From a virus, in IMG/VR virus record IMGVR_UViG_3300037493_004064, positions 23,737 to 87,736 of that record: a stretch of 64,000 nucleotides of DNA. One strand, 5' to 3'. Shown one piece after another: positions 11,901 to 61,493 of the stretch (position 1 is its first letter; every line of letters begins with the position of its first letter). The translations under genes were made by a program, and so were the position numbers. The notes beneath the pieces are model-generated. The model did not search any database, had not been told where the DNA came from, and saw only the letters and a program-made list of their open reading frames with translations.

Positions 11901-12352
11901 TAAACGAGTTGAATCAGGCATATAGCAAAGTGCAGGACTATAAGATGTTGAGTGATTCAGTCATTCTAAATAGTGTGACGTTTAAGCCATTGTTCGGTAA
12001 TAAAGCGGATCCGGCTCTTCGCGCCACTATCAAAGTTATCAAGGCGCAAAAGACTGACGCCAGCGACAGCGAAATAAGAAGCGCCACACTGACAGCAATG
12101 AATACCTATTTTGACATCAATAACTGGAACTTCGGAGATACTTTTTACTTCTCCGAACTTAGCGCATACCTACACGATCAGGTGGGTGAACTCGTCAGTT
12201 CAGTTGTATTGGTACCAAACGATCCTACAATGTCGTTCGGTGATCTGTACGAAATAAAATCGTCTCCATATGAAATATTTGTTAACGGAGCCACAGCATC
12301 TAATATTGTTGTGATTGCAGCGTTGACACCGGTCGAACTACAAATAAGATGA
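8978..12352 (+). CDS. 6: Baseplate wedge subunit gp6-like
   Basis: The 1124-residue protein has the gp6/J-type N-terminus: YETLRKSFIDYLRAYYPETF, then EFIALLDVMAFMGQGLAFRN, LNTRENFIDTAERRDSV and LANLVSYTSKRNLAGQG. A later conserved block reads RAPTRYYTQNRMVNGEDYNN (about 415). T4 gp6 (660 aa) forms the iris-like ring that links wedges; this version is much longer, with extra domains in the second half. It sits right after gp25, as in T4. Start ATG 8978 has AGGAG four bases upstream. Confidence 0.85.
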   Translation: MATSSRQSSLFGVNDWKAIYQTFREADFRSYDYETLRKSFIDYLRAYYPETFNDYIESSEFIALLDVMAFMGQGLAFRNDLNTRENFIDTAERRDSVVKLANLVSYTSKRNLAGQGYLKVTSIKTTQNINDLNGLNLSNLPILWNDPANPNWLAQYNTVVNAALTNTQRVGHPGNSAQLLGIKTDEYAISIPSTTQPVVPFTSSINGTTMNFELCSVTSVGTDYVYELPPGPTSQFNMLYRNDKLGYGSPNTGFFFYFKQGQLQNYTFNLAQQISNQVVDIDIQGINNTDTWLYQLSSSNGAPTLWKQVENVYADAYLQTESSIRRIFSVVSRFNDQVSYTFGDGVFSVIPVGTFRAYVRAGNALTYTIDPTEMQGISVNIPYTSRVGRQETLTMTLALTSPVSNALARESIADIKQRAPTRYYTQNRMVNGEDYNNFPYTLYSSIIKSKAVNRSSVGVSRNFDLLDPTGKYSSTNSFANDGGIYQNGADGTELLRVSNSGDIRAFLSNKLTVILGGNRATQYYLQNFPRYSINSASGDGTVYWQGCTVDANSLTGYFYNINISGNVPIATGVFSTHNIKYLTKGAMIKFEAPPGKYFDKNNRLVSGIASPSDTTLIWITVLNVIGDGYNNGDGAFTNGTGPITLNGYVPTGAVLTQVIPSFDNTLPDSLIQECVTRMELQQNFSLLFNNALTIAQDRWSIDTYDATGWFVNFQAKSGTNEYTIYYHSLAYFFGSVADTRFSFETGKLVFDPVSGRILQDFVKVLTSNTQPTSNYPLSADIMASIIGQTVEADGYVNDFQVEIASIDVNDRTVVTNPDFFNVITGYQVGNTNIGVYAFFITIEDAIKLTREQLIASSSVSYQYATSNQIEVVKYDYPVGQLFYAYSDNKFYASVQDHTVLTPYYTLVEQPQYSMKAGRQGLAFQYRHNSNNTTRIDPATTNIIDLYVVTQAYYTAYRNWIQDTTNTVIKPNRPTINELNQAYSKVQDYKMLSDSVILNSVTFKPLFGNKADPALRATIKVIKAQKTDASDSEIRSATLTAMNTYFDINNWNFGDTFYFSELSAYLHDQVGELVSSVVLVPNDPTMSFGDLYEIKSSPYEIFVNGATASNIVVIAALTPVELQIR

Positions 12353-12359
12353 GATAAAC

Positions 12360-24300: not shown

Positions 24301-27300
24301 TGCTATCTGACTTGACAATAAGCGTGGCTGGATTGCTATGCTATATTGGCCAAGTTGTATACAGAACGTTCGTGACCATTGATTATCCTGGTATTTCAAC
24401 GGTAACTAACTCTGCTGCCATCACCAACTATCTTACAATCCCGATGACTCCGAGTGGTAACGCCGGAACCACTGGGTTCTATCCAGGACTACCGATCTTC
24501 TTTGTCGGAACAATGATAGGTGGCATCATTGAAAATGAGCCATACTATATTACAACGGTTGTTGATAATCAGACCATCACCGTCTCAAAGAGTGCTGCGC
24601 CAACAATACTTAACATTACCTCAGTTAACTCCGGTACAAGTCAGGTTACTGGTGACGGCACATGGGCACTGACAGTCGGTGATCCAGTCATCTTCAATGA
24701 TATGGTTTCATTCGGTGTTCCTGCGAATGTGTTCGGGAATATCGTTTCGGGTGTCACCTATTATATTCATTCCATTGATGATTACAATCTTTTCACCTTA
24801 ATGACCGTTCCTTACGGAGCAGTATTTGACCCGGGTAATGACACAGGATCATGTCACATGACTAATCAGAGAGATGTCGTTCAACTCACCACTGACAGTG
24901 GAGCCATGACAATTAATGTTGGTCTGCCGATTAGCCCAGGACAAGTCAACGGCCAGTTGGTCTCATTCTACCCAACATCAGCACAAAAACCAGGTCTGTC
25001 TCCATCATCAATAGGTAATCTGGTGACGAGTATTGTTCGTGCTGCTGTTTACCAGGATACTGACGGTAATGATGTAAATCAACTGTCTATCTGGGCTGAC
25101 AGCAGATGGTTATCAGACACGTATATCAATATGCCGGTGAGTTTATTGGATACTTACGGTGGATTGACAGCCGGTGTCACTTATTACGTTTCAGAGATTG
25201 GCACTGTAAACACAATAGTTACCGCAACTGGCCCAACTGGCTTCACCTGCAATAGTACCGCTGGGTTCTATGATGGGATGCCAGTCACCTTTAGCGGATC
25301 ATCATTGGGTGGCACTCAGTTAAATATTACCTATTACGTTGATACCACCATACCTCTTACTCAGACTACGTTCAACGTACTTGGGTTCACCCCGTCCGTT
25401 GCATCTGGACTGACAACTATGACGGCCACAGGAGAAGCATACATTAAGGTAACAGATTTAATCGGCAACCCTGTGCTGACTCTATCGGATGATACGGCGC
25501 AGACGACTGTTACGCAAGTTGCTGACCCAGCATCCGCAGCACGATTCGACGTAAGCTGGATTCGCGGTGGATATCGCACAATGATAACCAATGGTGGAAC
25601 AGGATTCGCTGTCGGCAATACCCTAACAATACCTGGCACTGACTTAGACGGCGTATCTCCTGATAATGATCTGGTGCTCACAGTAAATAACATAAGCGTC
25701 ATAGTAAATGCTACTGCGTCTACTGCTACTGGAAACATAATAACATGTAACACTACTACTGGGTTGGCCAATAATGATCCAGTGGTATTCAGCGGAACAT
25801 CATTCGGTACAATTGTACCAGGACAAATATACTACGTCACCGTAGTAAATGGAGTTTCTATAACCATATCAGAAACATATGGCGGGCTAACCCTTCCGTT
25901 GACAGATGATACAGGATATATGACTGTGACTGACACCGGTGTTGGTGAGTTGTACATGGCTGCTGCATCAGGAACACCAGACGAAATCGTCACCCAATAC
26001 TACTTAAAGGTAGTGGCAGCAACTGAGTGCGAAATTTTCACTGACCCATTGATGACACAACCAGTGAACGTGGCATCTTTCATATACAAGGGCATTACAT
26101 CTGCTACGTTAGTTAGCACTACGGCGCCATTTACCTTGTCCTTCACTGATCTTAGTGGATTCAGCGACAATGATCCGATCTTGTTTACAGGAGATGTATT
26201 CGGTGGAATAGAAGTCGGAAAAGTTTATTACATATACAACATAAACCATGGTCTGAACACCCTAAATATACTTACATCTATCAACACCCCTGGTTCAATA
26301 GTTGCGGTATCAGATGATATCGGCTCATGCACCATGGCTAAGGTAGGTGACTACATTGTTCTCCCTGAACCGTTCTACTTTGATCAGAGCATTGTCAGAT
26401 ATAATCATCAACTTTATCAATGTATCATCAGCAATAATGACCCGACGTTTGTCTTTGGTAAGTGGGAACTTCTACTGAGTGAGAACATAAAGATCAACGC
26501 CTTGGATCGTATATTTGGTTACTATCAGCCAACGGTGAATATGCCAGGGCTTGACTTCACACAACTGGTCAACGGTGTCACGTATCCTAACGGCACATAC
26601 TATGGTAATGCGTTTGATCCTAATGATGAATTTACTCTGGATACGATCCTGCAGGACCAACCGTTCACCACGTTGGGATCCGCTGAGTATGTTATTCAAG
26701 GCGACACGTTCACATCTGGTTATGGACCGGAAGAACTTGTTCCTGGGGTAATCAGTGATAACCTGTCTATGGTTGTGACTACACGACCAGGAACAAGTTG
26801 GTCTGCACAACAATATGCACATGTAGGGTACAACGTTGTATCCAATGAACTGGTTCCGACTACAGCATTGCAAACTTCATATAGTTTTGTTAATGTTGTT
26901 CAGGTTCCTGCTCAGGTTTCGCTTGCCATCATCAATCGTGCCACCGGTCTTGCAACCTCGCTCTACTCCATGGATTACTCAGTAGACTGGATCAATAAGA
27001 TCGTCGTGCTGAACACTCCATTGACGTATGGTGCAGAAAGTCTACGTCTTGATGTGTATGAAGTGGGCAACGGTGATCAACTTGAAAAGTCAAACACCCA
27101 GATTGATCCACTAATGATTAACACTCTAACTGGCTTCAATGAAGTTGTGCTGAACTGTAACTATTCTGCACCTATAGCCGCTGGGTCCGGAGTAATCATG
27201 CCGGGGTCAGATCCAATTCAAGTGTTGGCAACTGCGACTGATGCAAGCCCGGACAACACCATTACATGTACTGGCATTGAGAAGTTTATTCTAAACGGGC

Positions 27301-45124: not shown

Positions 45125-46545
45125 AACTAGTTTATTCTCATCAGTACGAAAAATTTGAAAAACCGCAGTTCGTACACAACGGCATTCACCCGGCGTTTTC
45201 AAATTATCTTGTGTCAAAATCACAGGAAATGGGCAATCAGTTCAATCTTGACCAAGAAATAAATAAGGTAGTTCAGACTAACACAGCCCAAGATTGGTGC
45301 TTTACAACCCACAGTAATTTTATCTTTTACATCATCAGGTATTATGGTGGGAGTTACGGGGACTCAACTAACACAATCCACATGAATGACATCATTGACG
45401 ATGATGCCATTTACTTGTATCCAGTTGAAATTCGAACGACAATTAACGAATTTACAAAAGACCTCACCTTCCAATTGGAGGGGAAAACATATGAGTATAC
45501 GTTTCTTGATACAATCCCGAATCAGGTCTTGCAACACCTGAGGACCGGTAAAGTCAAGTTGATCATAAATGTAATTCATGACCCCGGTGCTCATTCGCTT
45601 CAGATGAGGAAGATTGAAAAAATGCTGAACTCCATTGGAATAGATGGCAGCAACATAATCTTTATTTGGGGGAATAATTACCAAAAATACTATGAGGAGC
45701 AACCCGAGAGCAAAATTAAGTTGACGTACGGGCTGCTTCCGTTGCAGCAAGTTGCTGCCAGTTCCAAACAATATCCGAGAGTAACGTCACTTGGGTATAC
45801 CTCTGACCTGGTCCGAGAAGAAGACTTGGAAAGAAATAAAACCACATATCGGAAAAGATTTCTATGTTACAACAGAACTCTGAAAAAACACCGATATATG
45901 CTGGCTTATCTGGCACTAAAACATGACCTGCTGCAGGACAATGTCTTTAGTTTTCTGAATTTAGTCGGAGACGAACAGCACGTTGTCCACTCAATTTATG
46001 AGTACACAAACGACCTGCCAGAATCTAAGATATGTGCCAAGAAAATAGTGGATATGATTCCGTATGAGATTGACACTCAACACCTGGATTCCGAGGCAAT
46101 TCGCTCATTTGGATCAGATAACAATCTTAAAGAAGTATTTCTTGGTACCTATATCCATTTAATATCAGAAACTCTGTTTGAAGAGGGAGACCCCAAGAAC
46201 CCATTCTTCTCTGAAAAGACGTTCAGACCAATACAAAATCTACAGCCATTCTTGTTCGCGGGGAACGCATACTCACTCAAGTTACTAAAAGAGTTAGGTT
46301 TTAAAACTTTTGCGCCCTTTATTGATGAACGATACGATGAGGTAGAGGACCATGTCCAGAGAATGAAAATGCTTGAGGGTGAGATATTACGATTAAAAAA
46401 TATGGATTTGGCCGAGATACACGCCTGGTATTATTCAATTACGGATATCCTACTTTGGAACCAGAACCATCTTTTGACCTTTGCAAAGAGTAATCCTTTT
46501 GATCAGGTTGTTTCCGACATAAATAAGTTCTATGAAATTCAATAA
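45109..46545 (+). CDS. Putative glycosyltransferase with C-terminal EKT module
   Basis: The 478-residue protein has no strong N-terminal match. In the second half, RKRFLCYNRTLKKHRYMLAY is followed by EYTNDL, and then FFSEKTFRPIQNLQPFLFAG, LLKELGFKTFAPFIDERYDE. The latter matches the C-terminal block of the 40422 fusion protein closely, including GFKTF-x-PFIDERYD. A glycosyltransferase role is inferred from context and from the E-K-T/P-F pattern seen in sugar transferases. The first 16 bases overlap the TPP gene. Confidence 0.55.
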   Translation: MDRILKLVYSHQYEKFEKPQFVHNGIHPAFSNYLVSKSQEMGNQFNLDQEINKVVQTNTAQDWCFTTHSNFIFYIIRYYGGSYGDSTNTIHMNDIIDDDAIYLYPVEIRTTINEFTKDLTFQLEGKTYEYTFLDTIPNQVLQHLRTGKVKLIINVIHDPGAHSLQMRKIEKMLNSIGIDGSNIIFIWGNNYQKYYEEQPESKIKLTYGLLPLQQVAASSKQYPRVTSLGYTSDLVREEDLERNKTTYRKRFLCYNRTLKKHRYMLAYLALKHDLLQDNVFSFLNLVGDEQHVVHSIYEYTNDLPESKICAKKIVDMIPYEIDTQHLDSEAIRSFGSDNNLKEVFLGTYIHLISETLFEEGDPKNPFFSEKTFRPIQNLQPFLFAGNAYSLKLLKELGFKTFAPFIDERYDEVEDHVQRMKMLEGEILRLKNMDLAEIHAWYYSITDILLWNQNHLLTFAKSNPFDQVVSDINKFYEIQ

Positions 46546-47524
46546 CAAAACCGTGCTAGTTACAGGGGCCAATGGCCTAGTTGGTTTACCAACAGTTGAG
46601 AAATGTGTCTTAGAGGGCGCCACGAAAGTGTATGCAGTTGACATCGTGTTAGGTGATAAACTTGTCAACCTTCAGCACAAATACCCGGATAACATTGTCC
46701 TTCTGAAGGTTGACCTTACTTACTTGCATAACTGTGAGGCCATTTTCGCAGAAAATGAAATTAATATTGTCTTGCATATCGCAGGAATTAAAGGTTCTCC
46801 GGCAAGATCAAGCAAGCGACCGTGTGATTACTTATTTCCAATGCTGATGTTCAACACTAATATGATTAAGGCGGCATTTGATGCCAAGGTTGACTGGTTT
46901 GTTTATCTGAGCAGCGTTGGTGTATATCAACCAGCAGAGATGATGCACGAAGATGATGTATGGAAAACTACGCCTAGTCAGAATGACTGGTACCCCGGGT
47001 GGTCTAAGCGAATGGGCGAAGCCACTCTGGAATCATTGCAGGTACAGTATGGTTGGGATAATTGGACAGTTATCAGACCATCAAATATCTATGGCTTAAA
47101 CGATAATTTTGCCCAAGACGCCACCGTAGTCAGTTCGAACATTTGGAAGTTACTCAACGTAGAAGGCGATGATATTGTTTGTTGGGGGAATGGATCAGCC
47201 AGACGAGATTTTGTGTTCGGTGATGACGTTGCTCAGGCAAGCATTGATGTTGTCAAAAAGGAAGTCAAGGACATTATAAACTTTGGGTGTGGAGTTGCAG
47301 TTTCAATTAAGGAAACGATTGAGGCTATCGTTGACTCGTATGAGGAAATTTCAGGAATCAGAAAGAATATAGTATGGGATGAGTCCAAAACAAATGGTGA
47401 TCCGGTCCGATGCCTAAATTCCGACAGACAAACTAAGTATCAAATTCTACCATCAACTTCTTTGAAAGATGGTATAAAGCAGACAATAATATCTTATCAA
47501 TCAGACCATGTAAATGTCAAATGA
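46532..47524 (+). CDS. NAD-dependent sugar-nucleotide epimerase/dehydratase (SDR)
   Basis: The 330-residue protein has a Rossmann motif T-G-A-N-G-L-V-G (11-18), VLHIAGIKGS, FVYLSSVGVYQP, RPSNIYGLNDNF and RRDFVFGDDVAQA, all typical of extended SDR sugar-nucleotide enzymes. The catalytic region reads WYPGWSKRMGE, so Tyr is five, not four, residues before Lys. The 3' end (about 47468-47502) has a diverged copy at 51407-51440 inside another gene. It overlaps the upstream gene by 14 bases. Confidence 0.8.
   Translation: MKFNNKTVLVTGANGLVGLPTVEKCVLEGATKVYAVDIVLGDKLVNLQHKYPDNIVLLKVDLTYLHNCEAIFAENEINIVLHIAGIKGSPARSSKRPCDYLFPMLMFNTNMIKAAFDAKVDWFVYLSSVGVYQPAEMMHEDDVWKTTPSQNDWYPGWSKRMGEATLESLQVQYGWDNWTVIRPSNIYGLNDNFAQDATVVSSNIWKLLNVEGDDIVCWGNGSARRDFVFGDDVAQASIDVVKKEVKDIINFGCGVAVSIKETIEAIVDSYEEISGIRKNIVWDESKTNGDPVRCLNSDRQTKYQILPSTSLKDGIKQTIISYQSDHVNVK
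47468..47502 (+). repeat. Direct repeat, left copy (end of epimerase gene)
   Basis: The blocks GATGGTATAAA, CAGACAATA and TCTTATCAATC occur in this order with one extra base between the first two. The same three blocks, without that base and with two substitutions, occur at 51407-51440. The last block plus flanks also occurs at 48646-48659. Confidence 0.75.
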
Positions 47525-48662
47525 TGCACTTAAACGGTTTGCTGCGAAGCGTTACCCTAATCCTAATAGTGGTATAGAGTCTGATGGTTTCATAAGACCA
47601 CCCGACATCCATATACCTGAGCAGGAAGAGCCGACGGCGAAACTGGCTCCAAGTTCTCCCCCGTCACAAAAAAACGTGAGAATTGCCGTATGTTTCCATG
47701 GGCAATTGCGTAATGCGTGTCATGCCGCACCTGCCATTAAGGCTTATTTAGGTGATTTATGGGAAAATTGCGATTTTTTCATACATACTTGGAATATTAA
47801 CACGTACACCAGTCCCTGTGAATCATTTAAAGATTATATCTATGCATTAACTGGCACAGAAATAGATTTAAATCTTACTGGTCCCCCTGTCAAAAAATCG
47901 GTTACCTATGATGAGGTAGAATTTGTAAAATTTTTTTATCAACCTAAATTTTTTAAAGTTGAATCATATGAAAAATGGGCCGAAGAACATTCCTCGTCAA
48001 TAAAGAAAGCCCTGGAATTAATAATTCCAGCACATTGTCCACCCTATTATTACAGTTTTTTTTCTAGTATACAGGGTAAAAAGTCTTTTGAAAATGAAAA
48101 CGGATTTATTTATGATGCTGTTGTAAAATTACGACCTGATGTTTCTTTTTTAGTAAATAAAATGCCTATCTATAAAGATAAGAAATGTCATCTGTCTAGT
48201 AAATGCACAACTGATGTTTATACGTCTTATTTGTGTCATGACCTAATAACTTTTTATAAAGACACAACTTCTTTTTATAAAGTAGGCGAAGAATTGTGGA
48301 TTTCTACTAGTTTGTTAATGGATAGAGTTAGCAATATTTGGCAAGATTTTAAATTTGGAAATACAGAAAATCTATCCATAGCAGAATATCTTACAAAACA
48401 TCATATCCAGCAAAAAACGACCCACACAGTGAACGTTGCTTTTCATCGGGCTATCTGTCAGATTGTGCCGTCAACTGATTGGCCGTTAGTTCATTTATTG
48501 TCAGTTTTAACTGATCAAGTGGGTCTAACTAATATAGTTGTTATCATTGAGGATGATGTGAAAAATCGGTTAATCAATTATATTAAAAGTGACGACTTTT
48601 TAGATATGTTGCAACAAACATATGAGTCATACAATAGAAGAAAATTATCTTATCAATCATGA
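47514..48662 (+). CDS. Putative glycosyltransferase, GQLR/LRPDV family (copy 1)
   Basis: The 382-residue protein has a Pro-rich N-terminal extension (1-55) and then RIAVCFHGQLRNACHAAPAI, LGDLWENCDFFIHTW, and later YDAVVKLRPDVSF, which takes the place of a DXD motif. The next gene starts with the same VCFxGQLR-AIKxxxGDLWxNCDFFxHTW plan, so the two are tandem paralogues. From about 47760 the DNA becomes strikingly AT-rich (14 G/C in 48121-48180). A transferase role is inferred from family resemblance. It overlaps the epimerase gene by eleven bases. Confidence 0.6.
   Translation: MSNDALKRFAAKRYPNPNSGIESDGFIRPPDIHIPEQEEPTAKLAPSSPPSQKNVRIAVCFHGQLRNACHAAPAIKAYLGDLWENCDFFIHTWNINTYTSPCESFKDYIYALTGTEIDLNLTGPPVKKSVTYDEVEFVKFFYQPKFFKVESYEKWAEEHSSSIKKALELIIPAHCPPYYYSFFSSIQGKKSFENENGFIYDAVVKLRPDVSFLVNKMPIYKDKKCHLSSKCTTDVYTSYLCHDLITFYKDTTSFYKVGEELWISTSLLMDRVSNIWQDFKFGNTENLSIAEYLTKHHIQQKTTHTVNVAFHRAICQIVPSTDWPLVHLLSVLTDQVGLTNIVVIIEDDVKNRLINYIKSDDFLDMLQQTYESYNRRKLSYQS
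48646..48659 (+). repeat. Short direct repeat between the tandem GQLR genes
   Basis: TATCTTATCAATCA is identical to 47490-47503. It is the end of the first GQLR gene and abuts the ATG of the second (48659). Its 11-base core also occurs at 51430-51440. Confidence 0.6.
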
Positions 48663-49612
48663 GAATTGCTGTATGTTTTAGTGGACAATTAAGAACCGGT
48701 GTATGGGCAATACCCGCTATAAAATCGTTTATAGGTGATCTTTGGGGAAATTGTGATTTCTTTTTGCATACCTGGGATTCTCAAAATAATAAAAATTATA
48801 GCAACGAAGTGATAAAAAAGTTAAATAGTTTAATGTCAATTGACATTAACTATACAAATCCAAATCGTCCAATTTATGGTCCTATAGGAAACGAGGATCT
48901 TAATAGATTTTTAACCATTTATAATCCAAAATTATTTTTGATTGAAAACTACAAAACTACACACAACAATATAGTAAATTATCGTGATAGTGTTGCTGCA
49001 CAACAAAATTTATCATATAATCCTGCAGATTTTCCCCCGGAACTGTATTATTCATATTATCGTAGTGTAGAGATGGTAAAACAATATGAACAACAATGGG
49101 GGTTTACTTATGATATTATAATTAAATTACGACCTGATGTTATTTTTCCCATGCATGATGGGCATCCAATATACCGTCATAAACGGGCTGATTTAAAAAA
49201 TGACATTGAAAAAGTATTAAATAATACAAATACTTTGTATAAATCTGACGATGTGTATTGGATATCAACCGGCGACATAATTAAAAAGGTAAATTTATTT
49301 TGGGAAGAAAGTTTAAAAACACCCAAAATAACATTGTGGAATTATGCTTCTACCCTGGGTATTGATATAGAATCATCAGAGAATAATAAGTATACCTTGT
49401 TGAGAAATTTGTGGAAACGGTTGCTAATTGACGATTTTTTTATGATAAACGCCCTCGAACGGTTGTTTGTGGATTTGCCAATTGAAACTGAGGCTGTTTT
49501 AAGCCCTCGTGTAGATTTTTATATACAGCATTCTAACGAATTAAAATCGTACATACGCAACTATAGTATTATCAAGGAGTTATGCGATGAAACAAATTGC
49601 ACAATCAACTAA
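48659..49612 (+). CDS. Putative glycosyltransferase, GQLR/LRPDV family (copy 2)
   Basis: The 317-residue paralogue of the preceding gene, without its N-terminal extension, starts RIAVCFSGQLRTGVWAIPAI, then GDLWGNCDFFLHTW and YDIIIKLRPDVIF. Later parts (ELYYSYYRSVEMVKQYEQQWG) match the spacing of copy 1 (YYYSFFSSIQGKKSFENENG). The whole gene is AT-rich. It starts immediately at a repeat shared with the end of the epimerase gene. Substrate unknown. Confidence 0.6.
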   Translation: MRIAVCFSGQLRTGVWAIPAIKSFIGDLWGNCDFFLHTWDSQNNKNYSNEVIKKLNSLMSIDINYTNPNRPIYGPIGNEDLNRFLTIYNPKLFLIENYKTTHNNIVNYRDSVAAQQNLSYNPADFPPELYYSYYRSVEMVKQYEQQWGFTYDIIIKLRPDVIFPMHDGHPIYRHKRADLKNDIEKVLNNTNTLYKSDDVYWISTGDIIKKVNLFWEESLKTPKITLWNYASTLGIDIESSENNKYTLLRNLWKRLLIDDFFMINALERLFVDLPIETEAVLSPRVDFYIQHSNELKSYIRNYSIIKELCDETNCTIN

Positions 49613-50981
49613 CAAATTAGTGATATTTGATTTAGATGGAGTACTTATTGAAAGTAGAGAACTTCATTACCATAGTCTTAATGATTCATTACGCAGTATT
49701 GATGCAAAATATGTTATTGATAGGGACGAGCACTTGTCAATATATGATGGATTAAATACAACCCGTAAATTAGAATTGTTATCTGAAACAAAAGGATTAC
49801 CCACCGAGTTTCACGATATAGTATGGCAACGTAAACAATTGGCAACTTTTAATCTTATTAAACAGTTTACAGTTGATACTAAGTTAGTTGATATATTTCT
49901 AAAACTTAAATCTTCCGGATATATGATTGCCGTTGCAAGTAACAGTATTAGAGAAACGGTTAAACTTAGTTTATTAAAAATTGGAGTAATGGAATATGTG
50001 GATTATTATGTAAGTAATCAAGATGTACAACGCCCCAAACCGTATCCAGAAATGTATTGGAAATGCATGTCTGCCCTAAGGGCATTACCACACGATACAT
50101 TAATTATTGAAGATAGTCATATCGGAAGGCGTGGCGCATTAGATAGTGGCGCTGTATTATTAGCAGTTGAAGATTCGCATGATATTACTTGGGATAAAAT
50201 TAATACACGATTACAACAAATGAACTCACAGATGACAACAAACAACATACCTTGGAAAGACAGCAGACTTAACGTATTAGTACCCATGGCAGGTGCAGGC
50301 AGTAGATTTGCACAGCAAGGATACACTTTCCCTAAACCGTTAATCGAAGTAAACGGTAAGCCTATGATCCAGGTCGTTGTGGAAAACTTAAACATCGAAG
50401 CACATTACATCTTCATCGTACAACAAGAACACTACGAAAAATACAATCTAAAATATTTGCTCAATCTAATTGCTCCGGGCTGTGACATCGTTCAAGTCAG
50501 CGGCGTCACTGAAGGCGCCGCTTGTTCTACGTTGCTTGCTAAAGATTACATCAACAATGATTCTCCGTTAGTTATGGCTAACAGTGATCAGTATGTTGAA
50601 TGGAATAGCAATGAGTGTATGTATGCGTTCACTGCTGATAGCATAGACGGTGCCATTCTAACGTTCGAATCAAGCCACCCTAAATGGAGTTATGCAAAGA
50701 TCGGCAACAACGGATTTGTAAGTGAAGTAGCAGAAAAGAAAGTTATCAGCAATGAAGCCACTGTGGGTGTTTACTACTGGAAGAAAGGTAGTGACTACGT
50801 TAAGTATGCTGAAGAAATGATTGCTAAGAATATTCGTGTTAATAATGAATTTTATGTATGTCCAGTGTTTAACCAAGCAATTGCGGACGGCAAGAAAATA
50901 AAAGTTAAGCGCGTCAATAATATGTGGGGGATAGGCACACCCGAAGATTTAAATCAATTCTTATTGAATTACAAACTATGA
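49587..50981 (+). CDS. Fusion: HAD phosphatase plus sugar nucleotidyltransferase
   Basis: The 464-residue protein. Residues 1-215 are a HAD-superfamily domain: F-D-L-D-G-V at 14-19 (nucleophile D15, D17), VASNS, RPKPYPEMY (Lys of motif III) and IIEDSHIG (motif IV), as in beta-phosphoglucomutase-type enzymes. From about 228, NVLVPMAGAGSRFAQQGYTF followed by PKPLIEVNGKPM is the nucleotidyltransferase signature, ending GIGTPEDL. It probably processes a sugar phosphate and then activates it with a nucleotide. The HAD part is AT-rich and the other part is not, with a change near 50230. It overlaps the upstream gene by 26 bases. Confidence 0.8.
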   Translation: MKQIAQSTNKLVIFDLDGVLIESRELHYHSLNDSLRSIDAKYVIDRDEHLSIYDGLNTTRKLELLSETKGLPTEFHDIVWQRKQLATFNLIKQFTVDTKLVDIFLKLKSSGYMIAVASNSIRETVKLSLLKIGVMEYVDYYVSNQDVQRPKPYPEMYWKCMSALRALPHDTLIIEDSHIGRRGALDSGAVLLAVEDSHDITWDKINTRLQQMNSQMTTNNIPWKDSRLNVLVPMAGAGSRFAQQGYTFPKPLIEVNGKPMIQVVVENLNIEAHYIFIVQQEHYEKYNLKYLLNLIAPGCDIVQVSGVTEGAACSTLLAKDYINNDSPLVMANSDQYVEWNSNECMYAFTADSIDGAILTFESSHPKWSYAKIGNNGFVSEVAEKKVISNEATVGVYYWKKGSDYVKYAEEMIAKNIRVNNEFYVCPVFNQAIADGKKIKVKRVNNMWGIGTPEDLNQFLLNYKL

Positions 50982-51463
50982 AATTAATTGCACACCGAGG
51001 ACTAGTTAATGGCCCTGATAGTAATTTAGAAAATCTACCTGGGCAAATATTGTTAAGTTTACAAGCAGGATATGATTGTGAAATTGATGTTAGGTATATT
51101 AATGGCAAATGGATGCTAGGACACGACGATCCAGATTTTGAAGTACCGTTTGAATTTCTCAAACAACCTGGATTGTGGATACATGCTAAAAATTTAGAAG
51201 CACTTTATGTACTGGGTGCTGAAAAAAGTTTAAATTATTTTTGGCATCAAGAAGATGATTTCACATTAACTAGTCATGGATATATTTGGACATATCCGGG
51301 AAAAGAATTAACTCATAATAGCATCATGGTATTACCCGAATTGAATGATCCTAAGTTTGAAAACTTACCAATAAATTGTTATGGTGTGTGTACTGCCTAT
51401 ATAGAAGATGGTATAAACAGACAATATTGTCTTATCAATCCAACCGCGCAGGGGGTCAAATGA
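50978..51463 (+). CDS. GDPD-like phosphodiesterase
   Basis: The 161-residue protein has KLIAHRGLVNGPD, EN, then CEIDVRYINGKWMLGHDDPD. These are the His-Arg, Glu-x-Asp and His features of glycerophosphodiester phosphodiesterases, shorter than the usual 240-280. It could act on glycerol-phosphate substituents. Its last codons (51407-51440) copy the end of the epimerase gene at 47468 in a different reading frame, so the tail after about residue 143 is recombinant. Start ATG 50978 overlaps the previous stop. Confidence 0.68.
   Translation: MKLIAHRGLVNGPDSNLENLPGQILLSLQAGYDCEIDVRYINGKWMLGHDDPDFEVPFEFLKQPGLWIHAKNLEALYVLGAEKSLNYFWHQEDDFTLTSHGYIWTYPGKELTHNSIMVLPELNDPKFENLPINCYGVCTAYIEDGINRQYCLINPTAQGVK
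51407..51440 (+). repeat. Direct repeat, right copy (inside GDPD-like gene)
   Basis: GATGGTATAAA and CAGACAATA are contiguous here, then three bases, then TCTTATCAATC, against 47468-47502 where one G separates the first two blocks. Apart from that gap, 32 of 34 bases match. Both copies are followed by GTCAAATGA a short way downstream, near the next gene start. Confidence 0.75.
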
Positions 51464-52566
51464 AGATCGGCATAAAATATAAAACTGATTTGGAAGAGAT
51501 TGCTGTTCTAGTGTGGTCATTGAGAGATTCAGCAATCAAAGCCGATCTTCGTGCCGATGGAATCTTTGAAGAAAGGTATAACGGTAAGGTATTTGAACTC
51601 ACTCTCGGTGAAAACTGCTTTCGGTTCTCAACGGTTGATGAGGCTTTATTGGAATGTGATAAAAAGGTTAGAGTTTCTCACCATTCTTTTGACGATGTTG
51701 ATCCTCGGTATGATAAAGAAATTTGTATACTGCATGACGCAATACGGGACGAATTTACTGAGGATCTTATAAGGGAATTTTTAGATAAAGGTAACATTCT
51801 CATATCGGTGTCAACCGCGAATTTCTCACATGAGAACTTGATTTATGATCCTTTACTTGGTCTAGTGACTATTTACTTAGACTTGGGTCTACACTTCCTT
51901 AATTATTATCAAGCACCTAAGAATTTTAAGAGACTATTGGGTGTCTACCACAAACCACTTCATATAGGTGGTGCACCAAACAACCGGCGTAATGAACTTT
52001 ACGATAAGGTGAGGGCTCAGTTGGGCGACGACTTCGGCGCATATAAATCATGTGATTCATCTTTCTTTGACCTGATAAATTCGTATAGATATTTTGGGCG
52101 ATGGGGGAATAATCATATTACTGGTTATACTGATTACGTCACTAGTGTATGCAATATAGTTTTTGAGACATACGATTCTGTGGGCTCAAACGTTTTTCAG
52201 GGCAGAACACTTTTAACGGAAAAAACAACAAAGGCGATAATTTTCTGCGAGGAGAATATCTTCTTTATTTGGTATGGTCGGGAAGATTTTTATAAAGTGT
52301 TGCGAGAGTATGGGTTTTGGTTTCTTAACTCGGAATTTTATGATGCGACTACGGAAATACAGGACCAAACTGCAATGTGTCAGTCAGTATTTAATGCCAC
52401 GACTTACCTACAAAAACTCAAGCACTCACTTGGCACAAACGAGAGAGTATACTCCCATTTAATGGAGAAGTATGGTCACCATCTGAAAGAGAATGTGAGA
52501 TTATTCAAGCACTTGGAACAAAATTGTCCAGTGAAGGATACACTCATAAATACAATTTTAAAATAA
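51460..52566 (+). CDS. Putative glycosyltransferase with EKT module
   Basis: The 368-residue protein has an unfamiliar N-terminus. Its second half has LLTEKTTKAIIFCEENIFFI followed by GREDFYKVLREYGFWFL and NSEFYD, a diverged version of the EKT-GF-F module in the genes at 40422 and 45109. Start ATG 51460 has GGGGG at 51451-51455; the upstream in-frame ATG at 51376 is rejected because it lies in the GDPD-like gene. Transferase activity is inferred. Confidence 0.5.
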   Translation: MKIGIKYKTDLEEIAVLVWSLRDSAIKADLRADGIFEERYNGKVFELTLGENCFRFSTVDEALLECDKKVRVSHHSFDDVDPRYDKEICILHDAIRDEFTEDLIREFLDKGNILISVSTANFSHENLIYDPLLGLVTIYLDLGLHFLNYYQAPKNFKRLLGVYHKPLHIGGAPNNRRNELYDKVRAQLGDDFGAYKSCDSSFFDLINSYRYFGRWGNNHITGYTDYVTSVCNIVFETYDSVGSNVFQGRTLLTEKTTKAIIFCEENIFFIWYGREDFYKVLREYGFWFLNSEFYDATTEIQDQTAMCQSVFNATTYLQKLKHSLGTNERVYSHLMEKYGHHLKENVRLFKHLEQNCPVKDTLINTILK

Positions 52567-52574
52567 AGGTCAGT

Positions 52575-53567
52575 ATGAAAAAAACAGATAGAATCTTAGT
52601 TACCGGAGCCAGTGGCTTCATCGGCTCGCACGTTTTGCGTACTCTTTTTGAAAAGGGCTACAAGAATCTTCGCTCCACTACTTACAGTAGAACTCTCCGT
52701 AAGGACTTTTATGGATGGGAAACAGTGGAGAATCATCATGGTGATCTTCGTACTGCTGAGTTTTGTGAGAAAATTACGCGAGAAGTGGATGTGGTGATTC
52801 ATTGCGCCGCCAATACATCAAACGCTCTGGATACCAAGTTCAATCCTCTGCTGCATGTGACACCTAACGTTGAGATGAACACTAATCTTATGGAACAGAG
52901 TTGGAAGAACAAGGTGACAAAATTTATGTTCATCTCGTCCAATACCGTTTACCCGGATATGGGCTTGGATTATTGTCGTGAAGAGGCGGATGTGCAGGGC
53001 ACCCCGTTAATTCCGGTGTATAAGGCAGTTGGTGGAATGAAACGATACACCGAAAGTTTATGCGATTTCTTCTCAAATCAGATTCATGAACCGATGCAGT
53101 GTATTATGATTCGCCCAAGCAATGCTTTTGGTCCTAATGATAAGTTTGACTATGAAAAATGTCATGTGACTCCGGCGAGTATTCGCAAGGTTGCCGACGG
53201 GCTGAACCCCATCCCTGTCTGGGGTGATGGTTCAGATGTCCGTGATCTACTTTATGTAGAAGACATGGCCGATGGTATTGTGTTTCTGACTGAGAATGTT
53301 GACACCTACGACAAGTTCAATGTCTGCTATGGGCAAGGCTTCACTGTGAACGAGGTGCTTGCCATGCTCAAAGAAATCGACCACAATGACAACCCTATTG
53401 AGTATGTAAACAACAAGGCATTTATGATTTCAGTTCGCCTGCTGAGTTCTGAGAAAATCAATCAACTCGGCTGGAAACCAAAGTATCAGTTAAGGGAAGC
53501 ATTAGAGAAGGCCATGAATTGGTATAAGGCGAACAAGGGTCAATACAATCCCGAATCAAAGCCCTAA
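52575..53567 (+). CDS. NAD-dependent sugar-nucleotide epimerase/dehydratase (SDR)
   Basis: The 330-residue protein has RILVTGASGFIGSHVLRTLF (Rossmann), VIHCAANTSNAL, FMFISSNTVYPDMGLDY, MIRPSNAFGPNDKF and VRDLLYVEDMADG. Catalytic-region residues read VYKAVGGMKRYTES; Tyr is seven residues before Lys, not the canonical four, which appears to be a trait of a phage/marine SDR subgroup (from memory). ATG 52575 follows the preceding stop by eight bases. It most likely makes a deoxy or epimerised GDP/UDP sugar. Confidence 0.8.
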   Translation: MKKTDRILVTGASGFIGSHVLRTLFEKGYKNLRSTTYSRTLRKDFYGWETVENHHGDLRTAEFCEKITREVDVVIHCAANTSNALDTKFNPLLHVTPNVEMNTNLMEQSWKNKVTKFMFISSNTVYPDMGLDYCREEADVQGTPLIPVYKAVGGMKRYTESLCDFFSNQIHEPMQCIMIRPSNAFGPNDKFDYEKCHVTPASIRKVADGLNPIPVWGDGSDVRDLLYVEDMADGIVFLTENVDTYDKFNVCYGQGFTVNEVLAMLKEIDHNDNPIEYVNNKAFMISVRLLSSEKINQLGWKPKYQLREALEKAMNWYKANKGQYNPESKP

Positions 53568-54607: not shown

Positions 54608-55434
54608 AACCTAAACAACCTACTCAACAACGGAAGGGAATCGCGTTCGGCGGGTGTTCTTTTACATGGGGTCAGGGCCTGCATTATTACAGTAACCTAT
54701 CCACATTAATCTTACCAGAAAATGAGAATATGTATGATGAGGAGTTAGTAAGTTATGCCCATTTTAAGTTCATTGAGACCGTCAGGTATCCAAGATTAGT
54801 AGCACAACACTTTAACACATTTGAATTGGTGCAACCATTTAATGGGGGAGCAACGAGAACTACTGTTGATTTTTGGACCGCTGCCATCAACTCAGAAAAG
54901 AACAGCTTTTCAAAGATAAATTGGAATGTCCCATCATGTGACATCTCAACCTTTGTTTGCCAACTTACTCAATGGAGCAGAATGCAGGTAACAATTGAGG
55001 TTGGTGGTGAAGTTATCGGTCCTGTACAGGTAATGGACTTGGTCAGTGACCGCCGGTTTTCAGAGTGGTTAACTGTCAGCGGGACTACATTTGATGAGGT
55101 CCTTAGTAAGTTTCGTGCCGCCGACCTTAGTTCAATAAAAACTTTCTTGGAAGAACAAGAGAATAAAGGAATTCGTGTAGTAATCGTTTCGTGGCCTGAT
55201 GATTTAGTTAACTTGATTAAATCAGATGACTGGTTAAGCAGACGATTTGTTAATCTTAAATATAAAGGGGCTACTGTTGGTAGCATAGAAGCATTACTAG
55301 ATCTCCACAACCTAAAAATCTCTGCCGATTTTGAATTTTTTAGTGAACCTCCTAAGGACCATCACCCTTCATTAGAATGCCATAAAATAATAGCAGAAAA
55401 TATAATAAGTTTTTTAGAAAGTAGTTATGAATAA
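54604..55434 (+). CDS. SGNH-hydrolase-like protein, GCSFTWGQG subgroup (copy 1)
   Basis: The 276-residue protein has GIAFGGCSFTWGQGLHYYSN (Ser at 19) and DHHPSLECHKIIAEN near the end (252-266). The Gly-Asn block III reads GGATRT, so the Asn typical of block III is not present. It is the first of three close paralogues (with 56774 and 57600). It uses ATG 54604 (ATGA overlap); an earlier ATG at 54559 lies in the O-fucosyltransferase gene. Likely acts on acyl groups of the glycan. Confidence 0.66.
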   Translation: MKPKQPTQQRKGIAFGGCSFTWGQGLHYYSNLSTLILPENENMYDEELVSYAHFKFIETVRYPRLVAQHFNTFELVQPFNGGATRTTVDFWTAAINSEKNSFSKINWNVPSCDISTFVCQLTQWSRMQVTIEVGGEVIGPVQVMDLVSDRRFSEWLTVSGTTFDEVLSKFRAADLSSIKTFLEEQENKGIRVVIVSWPDDLVNLIKSDDWLSRRFVNLKYKGATVGSIEALLDLHNLKISADFEFFSEPPKDHHPSLECHKIIAENIISFLESSYE

Positions 55435-56365
55435 AGTTCTTATCACCGGCGGAGCCGGATACCTAGGCTCTACTATGGCAGAGCACCTGCTATCTGAGGG
55501 ATATGCCGTGACGGTGCTTGATAACCTGTTATACAAGCAACTCTCTGTTCTACATCTGTTCAAGAAGGAAAACTTCAGATTTGTAAACGGTGATGTCAGA
55601 AACACTGAGTTGTTAACCAAGTTAGTCAACGACCATGATGTAATTATCCCACTGGCAGCAATAGTTGGGATGCCGGCATGCAAGGCGAACCCGCAGTTAA
55701 CAATTGATGTAAACTTTAAGCACATTGAAACTATCGTTAGCCTGCTGAGACCTGACCAGAAGGTAATTCTGCCAAATACCAACAGTCAGTATGGTTCATC
55801 TGATACCATTATCACAGAAGAAAGCCCATTTAAGCCGCTGTCTCTGTATGCCCAAACAAAATGTGATGCCGAAGACCAAGTATTGAAGAATGGCAAGGGC
55901 GTTGTACTGCGACTGGCCACAGTATTCGGTGTTTCGCCTCGTATGCGTCAGGATCTATTAGTCAATGACTTTGTATACCGGTCACTCGTTGATGGATTTT
56001 TGGTTTTGTTTGAGGGCCACTTCAAACGTAACTACATTCATGTACAAGACATTGCCCGCACTTTCCAGTTCATCATAGAACATTACGATCAGTGCCGGGG
56101 ACAGGCATATAACGCCGGACTGTCAACAGCAAACATAAGCAAACTTGAGTTGGCACAGAAAATCAAGGAATATATTCCAGGACTTGTCATCGTCCAGGAT
56201 GAGTTTAAGGAAGATTTTGACAAGAGGAATTACATCGTGTCAAACGAGAAATTGGAAAAGATAGGATGGCGCCCAATTTATGACCTGGATTACGGCATCA
56301 CGCAGTTAATCGAGGCATATCCATTAGTCATAACCCACAACCACAGGAACTTTACAAATTTATGA
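55427..56365 (+). CDS. NAD-dependent sugar-nucleotide epimerase/dehydratase (SDR)
   Basis: The 312-residue protein has KVLITGGAGYLGSTMAEHLL (Rossmann), PLAAIVGMPAC, ILPNTNSQYGSS and a canonical Y-A-Q-T-K (LSLYAQTKCDAED), RLATVFGVSPRMR, and RNYIHVQDIARTF. It is the only one of the three SDRs in the window with the standard YxxxK. It could be a UDP/GDP-hexose 4-epimerase or dehydratase. It overlaps the upstream gene by eight bases. Confidence 0.83.
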   Translation: MNKVLITGGAGYLGSTMAEHLLSEGYAVTVLDNLLYKQLSVLHLFKKENFRFVNGDVRNTELLTKLVNDHDVIIPLAAIVGMPACKANPQLTIDVNFKHIETIVSLLRPDQKVILPNTNSQYGSSDTIITEESPFKPLSLYAQTKCDAEDQVLKNGKGVVLRLATVFGVSPRMRQDLLVNDFVYRSLVDGFLVLFEGHFKRNYIHVQDIARTFQFIIEHYDQCRGQAYNAGLSTANISKLELAQKIKEYIPGLVIVQDEFKEDFDKRNYIVSNEKLEKIGWRPIYDLDYGITQLIEAYPLVITHNHRNFTNL

Positions 56366-56790
56366 AACAACGTAGATATATTCAAACCCTCTCAGAATTA
56401 ATTGACCGTCTTAGCATTGTTCAATTAAAAGAGGTATTCATCACTGAATTTAAGGATGAATATGCCAAAGAAATTAATGACATTGTGCATGACATTCAGT
56501 TAATCCTAGAGGAATCAAACGGGAAGTTGACCGCAGAAACTATTCGTGCCATCGTAGTAGTTAGTCAAATTAATCTTCACATTTGGCACAACGAGTCCAA
56601 CTATCGCAAGGGTATCAAGGATGGTAACAATCTTGAGCTAACCCATGGGTTAAATGGCATTCGCAACACTGCCAAGAATATTATTCAAGAGGCAGTTGGT
56701 GGCCGAAAGGATTACAAGGTAGATTGTTTAGCTGCCGATTTCTCCTCATGGGAAATTAGTTGGGGTGGAAAAGATGAAGATAAGGAATGA
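56362..56790 (+). CDS. Small helical conserved protein, function unknown
   Basis: The 142-residue, mainly helical protein reads TLSELIDRLSIVQLKEVFIT, INDIVHDIQLILEE, LHIWHNESNYRKG and GLNGIRNTAKNIIQEAVGG. I recognise the LSELIDRLSIVQLK and NGIRNxAKN pattern from proteins adjacent to sugar gene clusters but not a function. It may be a regulator or partner of the neighbouring SGNH proteins. It overlaps both neighbours. Confidence 0.55.
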   Translation: MKQRRYIQTLSELIDRLSIVQLKEVFITEFKDEYAKEINDIVHDIQLILEESNGKLTAETIRAIVVVSQINLHIWHNESNYRKGIKDGNNLELTHGLNGIRNTAKNIIQEAVGGRKDYKVDCLAADFSSWEISWGGKDEDKE

Positions 56791-57616
56791 CATCCAGATT
56801 AGGGGAATAGCCTTTGCTGGATGCTCATTCACTTGGGGTCAAGGACTCTACTACTACAGTAATCTGCCAACTCTTAGTGAGCCTGGCAAGTTTAAGTTCC
56901 AGCCTGAACTATTAACTGCCCCGCAAATAAAGTACATGGAATCGGTGCGCTGGCCAAGGCTAGTTGCCACACATTTTAATTCATTTGAGTTGACCCAGCC
57001 GTTCAACGGTGGAGCAGTTTATACTATTCTTGGTTGGTGGAATACCTGCTTTAAAAATTTTCTGGATGGAGGTTCTCCGAAAAACCCCGAAGTTAGGTGT
57101 GATTATTCTGAGATTTCTCATTTGGTGTTTCAAATGACTCAGTGGCACAGAAGCCAAAAAGTTGTTCAGTTCAACAGCGGCGAACTTCAATGTTCTCATT
57201 TCGAACTATGGACTACCTACAAGGATGAGTTCTTTGTCTGGTTAGATAAGAATGGAATAACGTTAGATGAGTACGTTGATCAGGCCAAGAAAAGAGATGT
57301 GCGAGAAGTATCTACCTGGTTACAGAGTTTAGAACAGCGTGGCATTAAAATCTCAATATTGACTTGGCCCGCCGACCTGGTCCAGTATATTCTGGATGAT
57401 CCATGGTTAGCAGACCGATTTATTAGTTTTGACTACAATGGGTCGTCGTTCGATAGCATAGAAGGAATGATAGAACAAAATAAACACCTGGAAATAATCA
57501 ATGATTATGAATTTTTTGAAGTACCACCAATAGATCATCACCCATCGTTGGCATGCCAGCCGGTGATCGCCGCTGCTGTAATAAAACATATTGAAAAAAA
57601 TGAAATCAAAAAGTAA
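56774..57616 (+). CDS. SGNH-hydrolase-like protein, GCSFTWGQG subgroup (copy 2)
   Basis: The 280-residue paralogue of 54604 has GIAFAGCSFTWGQGLYYYSN (Ser at 18), PFNGGAVYT, and DHHPSLACQPVIAAA. The central sequence YSEISHLVFQMTQWHR aligns with CDISTFVCQLTQWSR. I prefer ATG 56774 with a GGTGGA site; GTG 56765 would add three residues. The gene starts inside the previous one. Same likely role, possibly with a different acyl or sugar specificity. Confidence 0.66.
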   Translation: MKIRNDIQIRGIAFAGCSFTWGQGLYYYSNLPTLSEPGKFKFQPELLTAPQIKYMESVRWPRLVATHFNSFELTQPFNGGAVYTILGWWNTCFKNFLDGGSPKNPEVRCDYSEISHLVFQMTQWHRSQKVVQFNSGELQCSHFELWTTYKDEFFVWLDKNGITLDEYVDQAKKRDVREVSTWLQSLEQRGIKISILTWPADLVQYILDDPWLADRFISFDYNGSSFDSIEGMIEQNKHLEIINDYEFFEVPPIDHHPSLACQPVIAAAVIKHIEKNEIKK

Positions 57617-58469
57617 CTGTTGTGTATCCAAGGCCATGGTGTTTGCCGGTTGTTCCTTTACATGGGGTCAGGGGCTGCACTATTATAGCAACCTACCAAA
57701 CATTCAGGAGCCACTACCGTGGCACTACGATTCTAACCTTGTATCTTTTGTTAACTACGAGTTTATAAAATCAGTTAGGTTTCCGAGAATAGTTGCAAAT
57801 CATTTTGGTTCGGTTGAGTTAACCCAACCGTTTAACGGAGGAAGCAACGCATCGATAATGGCCTGGTGGAACTCCTGCTTTGATAATATTGACTCGTATC
57901 AACAAAATGAACTAAGCATAAATTCATCAACTGGTTTGCCTCGGTACAAGTTTGATGAGGTATCACATCTGATCTTTCAGTTAACACAGTGGGACCGGGA
58001 CTTTACTACTATAGAGGTGGATGGTAAGGTATACGGGCCAATATCTTATGCTAATCTCATGTACGACCATCGGGAAGTCTTTCTCCGTTATTTAGAAAAA
58101 AATAACATGACTTTAGACGAGTACGTAGATAATGCAAATCAAAAAAATATGCAGGCTGTGAAAACCTTTTTACAGAAATTTGAAGACCATGGGGTCAAGA
58201 CCTATGTAATATGCTGGCCATTGGAAAGTGTAAAGTATGTCATGGAAGATCATTGGTTGAGCAAAAGATTAATTACACTGCACTTTAAGGAGTTAGAGTT
58301 TCCATCTATTGCCCACCTTATGGGAGCATCGGATCAATACCCAGTGCCTTTCCCGGAGATGAGCATTATGCGGGACGCCAGCAGTTTTGAGGTTACGCCA
58401 TCTGATATGCACCCATCACTTTCTTGCCACAAAGTGATAGCCGAAAGTGTTATTAAGCGGTTACAATGA
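57600..58469 (+). CDS. SGNH-hydrolase-like protein, GCSFTWGQG subgroup (copy 3)
   Basis: The 289-residue paralogue has VFAGCSFTWGQGLHYYSNLP (Ser at 19), PFNGGSNASI (a complete Gly-Ser-Asn block III, unlike copies 1 and 2) and DMHPSLSCHKVIAES. The N-terminus is Lys/Ser/Cys-rich (KSKSNCC). ATG 57600 starts inside the previous gene; TTG 57591 is an alternative. Confidence 0.66.
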   Translation: MKSKSNCCVSKAMVFAGCSFTWGQGLHYYSNLPNIQEPLPWHYDSNLVSFVNYEFIKSVRFPRIVANHFGSVELTQPFNGGSNASIMAWWNSCFDNIDSYQQNELSINSSTGLPRYKFDEVSHLIFQLTQWDRDFTTIEVDGKVYGPISYANLMYDHREVFLRYLEKNNMTLDEYVDNANQKNMQAVKTFLQKFEDHGVKTYVICWPLESVKYVMEDHWLSKRLITLHFKELEFPSIAHLMGASDQYPVPFPEMSIMRDASSFEVTPSDMHPSLSCHKVIAESVIKRLQ

Positions 58470-59913: not shown

Positions 59914-60012
59914 ATGTTTATTACAAAGTTTATTAAAAAAATGATACGAGAATACAAGTATCGTAAGCGCCTAAAGGAGATGCGAAAGCGCGACCCCTTT
60001 ATTTACAAATGA
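59914..60012 (+). CDS. Very small basic peptide (32 aa) before the carbamoyltransferase
   Basis: ATG 59914 has a perfect-looking AAGGAG ribosome-binding site (59903-59908) and ends TGA overlapping the next start (ATGA), so it is very likely translated. The peptide is strongly basic (FIKKMIREYKYRKRLKEMRK) and ends RDPFIYK. I believe a similar peptide precedes carbamoyltransferase genes in cyanophages (from memory, not checked). The role is unknown; it could bind RNA or the membrane, or serve only to couple translation. Confidence 0.6.
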   Translation: MFITKFIKKMIREYKYRKRLKEMRKRDPFIYK

Positions 60013-61493
60013 ACTACATCGGCATCTCCTCAGGGTTCCATGACGCAGCAGTGAGCGTTATCGACCAATCCGGCAATATTCTCTTTGCCGGACACTCCGA
60101 ACGCTACTCAAAGCAGAAGCACGACAAGGAGTTAACTCAGTTGGCCGTGTGTAACGCCCTGGACTACATCACTGATGACTATGAAGTTCATTACTATGAG
60201 AAGCCTTGGTTAAAGTTCCTGCGACAGATACGAGCAGGCGAACCGCTAGATATGCGTACTCTATCCGCACGAAACATGATCGGGCGACTAAATTGGGTAA
60301 CTCTTGATAAACAGCCGATTCACACCCACAGTCATCACCTAAGTCATGCCGCAGCGGGGTTTCAGACAAGCCCGTTCACTGAGGCAACAGTGGTGATCAT
60401 TGACGCCATTGGTGAGTTTGAAACTATCACTATCTGGGATGCATCGTATGATGATCGTGGTCAGGCTCGTTACGAGAAACTCTGGAGCAAGACTTACCCA
60501 GATAGCATTGGTCTATTCTACTCAGCAATGACTAAGCGAGTAGGACTGCGCCCTCTGGACGAGGAATACATTCTGATGGGTATGGCAGCATACGGCACCC
60601 CGGTACATTACGCTGAATTACATGATGAACTTATGGAAGACAGCAGTGATTTATCGTTTGTTCATAATCTTCATACAGGTGTACCTGATTATTTCCTCCA
60701 AGGTGCCAATGACATGGACATTGCTGCATCAAGTCAATTGCTTGTGGAACATCTTATACAGAACGTGATGACCAGAGCCAAAATACTTGGCAGATCAGAC
60801 AATCTGGTATATGGCGGCGGCGTTGCACTGAACTGTCTGGCCAATAGAAACCTACATCAGAAATTCAAAAACATCTGGATCATGCCGAACCCAGGTGATG
60901 CAGGGTCAAGTCTCGGCGCCGCCGCGTTGGGACATGGTGGTAAAATCAACTGGCAGAACGCCTATCTTGGTTTTAACATTGACCGACCGTATCCTGTGAA
61001 CGCCCTACTTAGAGAACTGCTACACGGGAACATCGTTGGTGTAGCCAGCGGCCGGGCAGAGTTCGGTCCAAGAGCACTGGGCAACAGATCATTACTGGCA
61101 GACCCTAGAGGACCCTTGATCAAGGACAAAGTAAATGAAATCAAACGTAGACAGCAGTTCAGACCTTTCGCGCCAGTTATACTGGAGGAATTTGCTGATC
61201 AGTTTTTTGATATGTCTTGCGGCAGCAGTGATAACAGGTACATGCAGTTCATCGCTACTTGTCGGCGTCCTGACTTATTTCCTGCTATCGTTCATCACGA
61301 CGGAACTAGTCGTGTACAGACTGTACCCAAAGATGGCAGCGGAATCAGAGAACTACTTGAAAAATGGTACCTGATGACTGAATGCCCGATGTTGCTGAAC
61401 ACCTCGCTGAACATCCGCGGCGAACCAATGGTCAACACCGTCTCGGATGCTGAACGATTCTCAAAACTTTATGGGGTGCATGTATTCTCTTAA
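60009..61493 (+). CDS. NodU/CmcH-family carbamoyltransferase
   Basis: The 494-residue protein starts NYIGISSGFHDAAVSVIDQS with HSERYSKQKHD (the GxHDAA, SERxxxxKHD signature), then HSHHLSHAAAGFQ (metal-binding His), VYGGGVALNCLANRNL, MPNPGDAGSSLGAAALGHGG, and the C-terminal RAEFGPRALGNRSLLADPRG and FRPFAPVILEEF. These are complete hallmarks of the family. It transfers a carbamoyl group from carbamoyl phosphate to a sugar hydroxyl. It is the last gene of the gapless glycan block. Confidence 0.88.
   Translation: MNYIGISSGFHDAAVSVIDQSGNILFAGHSERYSKQKHDKELTQLAVCNALDYITDDYEVHYYEKPWLKFLRQIRAGEPLDMRTLSARNMIGRLNWVTLDKQPIHTHSHHLSHAAAGFQTSPFTEATVVIIDAIGEFETITIWDASYDDRGQARYEKLWSKTYPDSIGLFYSAMTKRVGLRPLDEEYILMGMAAYGTPVHYAELHDELMEDSSDLSFVHNLHTGVPDYFLQGANDMDIAASSQLLVEHLIQNVMTRAKILGRSDNLVYGGGVALNCLANRNLHQKFKNIWIMPNPGDAGSSLGAAALGHGGKINWQNAYLGFNIDRPYPVNALLRELLHGNIVGVASGRAEFGPRALGNRSLLADPRGPLIKDKVNEIKRRQQFRPFAPVILEEFADQFFDMSCGSSDNRYMQFIATCRRPDLFPAIVHHDGTSRVQTVPKDGSGIRELLEKWYLMTECPMLLNTSLNIRGEPMVNTVSDAERFSKLYGVHVFS

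Follow-up and report, generated by a model that had tools for sequence, protein, structure and literature searches.

A variable sugar-gene slot in a large tailed phage, with copies of an epimerase gene end inside other genes

Phages readily swap the genes for their surface sugars, and the joints left by such swaps are usually erased. Islands of the integrase type integrate at the 3' end of a gene, whose end is restored. The locus described here, part of a 64,000-nt stretch of viral DNA (the window), shares with such islands an intact target gene—an epimerase gene, epi—and, beyond the insert, a copy of that gene's 3' end. It differs in that no integrase was found among the scanned cassette and flanking proteins, the two copies (A and B) have diverged with two indels, and the far one now forms part of a different gene.

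Recombination between diverged phage genes has been documented (PMC2327257, PMC3945230), and the locus has much in common with the homology-driven mosaicism of those studies, which arises by relaxed homologous or homeologous recombination: foreign genes lie between shared genes, the two sides differ in ancestry, and traces of homology persist at a border. Those phages are temperate and lambdoid, whereas the window comes from a large tailed phage; unlike them, it keeps a gene-end scar inside other reading frames, apparently from two events at one border. The lipopolysaccharide clusters and mobile cassettes of T4-like cyanophages (PMC3037559) are likewise sugar-gene clusters of variable content, and the likeness extends to a gene, HAD-NT, common to the window and Synechococcus phages; in contrast to the cyanophage cassettes, no tRNA or endonuclease was found beside the window's slot. 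PeSL modules—promoter/stem-loop modules by which genes of T4-type phages are shuffled, as summarized in a passage of PMC4503421 that cites Arbiol 2010 and Comeau 2014—resemble the locus, as far as that passage goes, in placing short repeats at gene boundaries adjoining shuffled genes; the window's repeat differs from the modules outlined there in being gene-end coding sequence and in having neither a significant stem-loop nor a promoter shared by the copies. The locus is ordinary phage mosaicism, of a known kind and unusually legible, and not a new kind of system.

A variable slot between two epimerase genes

The genes of the locus and the repeat copies discussed below are listed in Table 1. 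In a family of large tailed phages, the interval between epi and a second epimerase gene, epi2, is a variable slot. Among 70 related viral loci fetched with epi (61–87% identical there), epi2 follows epi directly, with a gap of at most 90 bases, in 23; other inserts of about 0.7–4 kb occupy the interval in 45, and two contigs end before the slot can be read. The slots of two loci (L013 and L014) hold only a GQLR2-like gene (64%) and HAD-NT (83%), without GQLR1; that of L052 holds an oxygenase-like gene and a K396-like gene, the latter before epi2; and SGNH-like genes, recognized by eye from the sequences at their starts, occur in several others. The original prediction had taken the interval for a sugar cassette that entered by insertion or exchange at a homologous gene end, and had proposed looking in relatives for an empty site or a different cassette: both occur, as does a subset of the cassette itself, and the relatives do not share the window's gene order. 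Together with composition and a repeat that exceeds chance, these empty and alternative sites support the proposed insertion or swap. The DNA of the region gave no match to cultured phage records.

Table 1. Features of the slot and its borders (window positions)
Feature	Positions	Strand	Description	Basis
epi	46532..47524	+	NAD-dependent nucleotide-sugar epimerase/dehydratase, complete; left slot border	Pfam Epimerase 4.5e-33
Copy A	47468..47524	+	3' end of epi	Sequence alignment
GQLR1	47514..48662	+	Probable glycosyltransferase	33.6% identical to GQLR2; PHROG 13607, unknown function
Copy C	48641..48660	+	Partial epi tail ending GQLR1; overlaps GQLR2 start	Gene-end comparison
GQLR2	48659..49612	+	Probable GT-A-like glycosyltransferase	64% identical, same slot, L013/L014
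HAD-NT	49587..50981	+	HAD hydrolase fused to sugar nucleotidyltransferase	Pfam HAD_2 8e-24, NTP_transferase 1e-10
GDPD-like gene	50978..51463	+		Alignments with most relatives end at residue 142-143
Copy B	51407..51463	+	epi 3'-end relic with -1 and +1 indel; abuts K396 start	
K396 (368 aa)	51460..52566	+	Possible glycosyltransferase, conserved MKIG start	32% relative adjoining epi2, L052
epi2	52575..53567	+	Second epimerase; right slot border	Pfam Epimerase 1e-42

To judge from its genes, the cassette would carry out steps of sugar transfer in building a glycan of the surface or the virion. The GQLR, GDPD-like and K396 proteins have no convincing sequence match to any solved structure, the GDPD-like protein matches nothing in Pfam or the PDB (its name marks a resemblance only), and a single-sequence search of viral contigs and cultured phages confirmed no relatives of GQLR1. 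A structural model of GQLR2 (pLDDT 73) comes closest, weakly, to GT-A glycosyltransferases, and a low-confidence model of K396, whose relatives elsewhere are 38–42% identical, gives a weak match to a fucosyltransferase-like fold. HAD-NT is up to 88% identical in other viral contigs and 62–65% identical in isolated Synechococcus phages; its tree neither supports nor rejects one acquisition common to the window and L013. In other phages HAD-NT, GQLR-type and GDPD-like genes travel together: within 5 kb of HAD-NT, a GQLR gene lies in 105 of 130 loci, a GDPD-like gene in 116 and both in 95, counts that are inflated because the loci were fetched with HAD-NT or GDPD queries and include overlapping records.

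Several features of these families and of the surrounding DNA may be recorded here. The GQLR domain of GQLR1 begins at 47673, after a 53-aa N-terminal extension; the stretch encoding this extension (47514-47672) has a higher GC content (0.47) and no homologue among the fetched loci, and may be a fragment of another gene. A different arrangement is seen in three other phages (L242, L244, L245), where a K396-like gene follows two or three consecutive GQLR-type genes near relatives of g271/g767. In L074, a K396-bearing phage, two SGNH-like genes with diverged bodies have the final 60 nt (58/60) and the stretch beyond in common—a second, independent gene-end duplication (4259-4451 and 5066-5258). 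Elsewhere in the window, one uninterrupted open frame (12348-29792), some 17.4 kb or roughly 5,800 codons long, lies downstream of baseplate-type genes; three related GCSFTWGQGL-type genes (54634-57695), with 66-nt 5' segments 71–82% identical, suggest local gene amplification; and a Nol-like carbamoyltransferase gene (59970-61490), a further sugar-modification gene, stands on the far side of the island.

The cassette had been described as AT-rich, which is real and only moderate: its genes have GC contents of 0.31–0.37 and third-position values (GC3) of 0.22–0.32 (0.26 in GQLR1), against 0.41–0.44 and 0.41–0.49 for epi and epi2. Set against the window's long frames (mean GC3 0.40), the four inserted genes deviate in the direction that was expected. 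Codon-usage likelihood departs mildly (z of 2.1–2.7 for three of the four), so that composition alone is no proof of foreign origin.

The two sides of the slot also have different closest relatives. In trees, epi and the rfbC-like gene upstream of it are sister to those of L001 (supports 100/99 and 99/92), epi2 clusters with L002 and related loci (97/96), and a third epimerase with L002 (98/94). Forcing the opposite groupings was rejected by AU tests (epi with L002, p 0.0016; epi2 with L001, p 1e-61), with p values that are somewhat optimistic since the groups were picked after the trees had been viewed. The discordant trees place a change of ancestry between epi and epi2, in the window phage or in one of the relatives; the switch may have taken place in L001 or L002 instead of the window phage. 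Sliding identity of epi to L001 is uneven, without a clear breakpoint.

Copies of the epimerase gene end

The repeat first noted between 47468-47502 and 51407-51440, with 32 of 34 aligned bases equal and one base deleted, holds at exactly those positions. Since the homology reaches the stop codons of both genes, the repeat is longer than this, at 57 nt: copy A is the final 57 nt of epi, from codon 313 to the stop, and copy B the final 57 nt of the GDPD-like gene. The two agree almost completely over their first 34 positions and in full over the last nine bases (GTCAAATGA); between these stretches they have diverged. The local alignment score of 57 counters a chance match: 1000 third-order Markov simulations of the 5-kb region reached 35 at most. 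Copy B is also the window's strongest match to the epi tail, that tail itself excepted.

Copy B was thought to be read in another frame than epi. This is so for the middle of the repeat; its start is in the epi frame, GDPD-like codon 144 corresponding to epi codon 313 (EDGI/KDGI). The shared frame is then lost at a missing base (AAAGCAG to AAACAG) and regained at an extra base within a run of G; because the deletion is offset by the insertion, epi and the GDPD-like gene stop at a homologous TGA.

Relatives of the GDPD-like protein point to the origin of this tail. A search found 410 related viral stretches, of which the best 80 were kept; in most of these the alignment ends at residue 142-143, and the relatives' own tails (for example, SDYVEKIK) are unrelated to that of the window. 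The homology of most relatives ends one codon before the onset of copy B, which marks copy B as an epi 3'-end relic serving as the tail of the GDPD-like protein: by sequence comparison, residues 1-143 are native and an epimerase gene end supplies the codons of the last 18 (144-161). Copy B meets the start codon of K396 (51460), just as the end of epi meets the following gene in many relatives; the simplest reading is that an epimerase gene would once have directly preceded K396.

A third copy, C, lies at the end of GQLR1, where LSYQS is in the same frame as the epi tail TIISYQS. Copy C is short, and its score was reached by 9 of 1000 simulated regions. In a comparison of 1914 gene ends, taken from the window and the fetched loci, its score of 31 was matched by copy B and by epimerase ends alone; the best of the unrelated ends reached 25. 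This third relic implies two insertions. Neither it, nor the origin of the GDPD tail as an epi relic, nor the differing closest relatives to the left and right of the slot had been anticipated by the original prediction.

Such scars are not general in the slot, since no other relative has an epi-tail relic: a search of the other filled slots gave nothing convincing, with scores mostly within the control range, and a degenerate search for further epi tails like A or B found none. Relic candidates in three loci (L017, L020, L021) were rejected as gappy, AT-rich and away from gene ends.

How the slot may have been filled

Probably, successive recombination events filled the slot behind epi and stranded scars of the epi tail. 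On the best reading, there were at least two insertions behind epi, each with its own scar, by a mechanism that we infer. The starting order would have been epi, K396, epi2. A block of GQLR2, HAD-NT and the GDPD-like gene would first have entered between epi and K396, leaving relic B; GQLR1 would later have entered between epi and GQLR2, leaving relic C. At the left joint, recombination with a related phage probably took place inside or near epi, present in both partners; the right joint would have formed through short homology, at the final ~57 nt of the epi already in place, and the 57-nt epi tail repeated at the insert's right border is homology at an exchange border. The outcome would be a complete epi (tail A), then the incoming genes, then an epi-tail copy at the right end of the insert, the GDPD-like gene and GQLR1 now using relics B and C as their C-terminal codons. 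Among the searched relatives there was none of the predicted intermediates, in which an epi gene would lead straight into K396 or, with an ILSYQS-type tail, into GQLR2, nor did a K396 profile search find epi and K396 as neighbours; the order of events, like the one-sided homology, is accordingly one that we infer.

A single exchange may instead have brought GQLR1 to GDPD whole and left only relic B, copy C being a chance or convergent gene end. We regard this as possible though doubtful: the simulated regions that reach the score of copy C speak for it, and arrays of GQLR genes elsewhere make a joint arrival of GQLR1 and GQLR2 possible, but copy C matches in frame at a gene end and stands above the best unrelated of the 1914 ends (31 vs 25), and the L013/L014 slot has GQLR2 and HAD-NT without GQLR1.

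Successive insertion could be taken further, with the 3' end of epi as a preferred landing point, directly behind which sugar genes are repeatedly added, each stranding a copy of the tail; we think this extension unlikely. Were it true, the tail copy would form the C-terminus of the last incoming gene, and the order of relics would record the order of acquisition.

Quite improbable, in our judgement, is the reading that the epi end was duplicated in tandem and that genes were then gained between its two copies, with no epi end coming in from another phage. Over the first 34 nt copy A is indeed closer to copy B than to any relative listed, but the last 23 nt of the two are strongly diverged, each scar would need two separate events, and the flanks show exchange with other lineages.

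We give very little credence to a dedicated mobile element—an integrase target, an integron-type site, a homing endonuclease or a PeSL module—recombining at the repeat. Within a variable slot, several gene boundaries do carry copies of one short sequence, and cyanophage carbon-metabolism cassettes are linked with endonucleases and tRNAs (PMC3037559); against this, no recombinase or endonuclease domain was found in the cassette and no tRNA in the window, the repeat copies fold no better than shuffles, a promoter-like match in copy A is absent from copy B, and the repeated stretch, conserved coding sequence of the epimerase, has no second copy in other filled slots. An assembly artefact, joining reads of two phages in the slot and so making both repeat and lineage switch, is extremely improbable: the record is an uncultured virus contig (87,736 bases) whose flanks differ in their nearest relatives, but assemblers make their joins where words are identical, A and B are separated by 3.9 kb and show substitutions and indels relative to each other, and the open frames are intact through every junction.

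Meaning for phage sugar genes

Successive recombination behind epi, as preferred here, leaves joints that can still be read: a gene end kept as the tail of another protein suggests the order in which genes were inserted. The scar also illustrates how a neighbouring protein can be lengthened by accident when genes are inserted, and the locus marks a natural slot where related phages carry different sugar genes.
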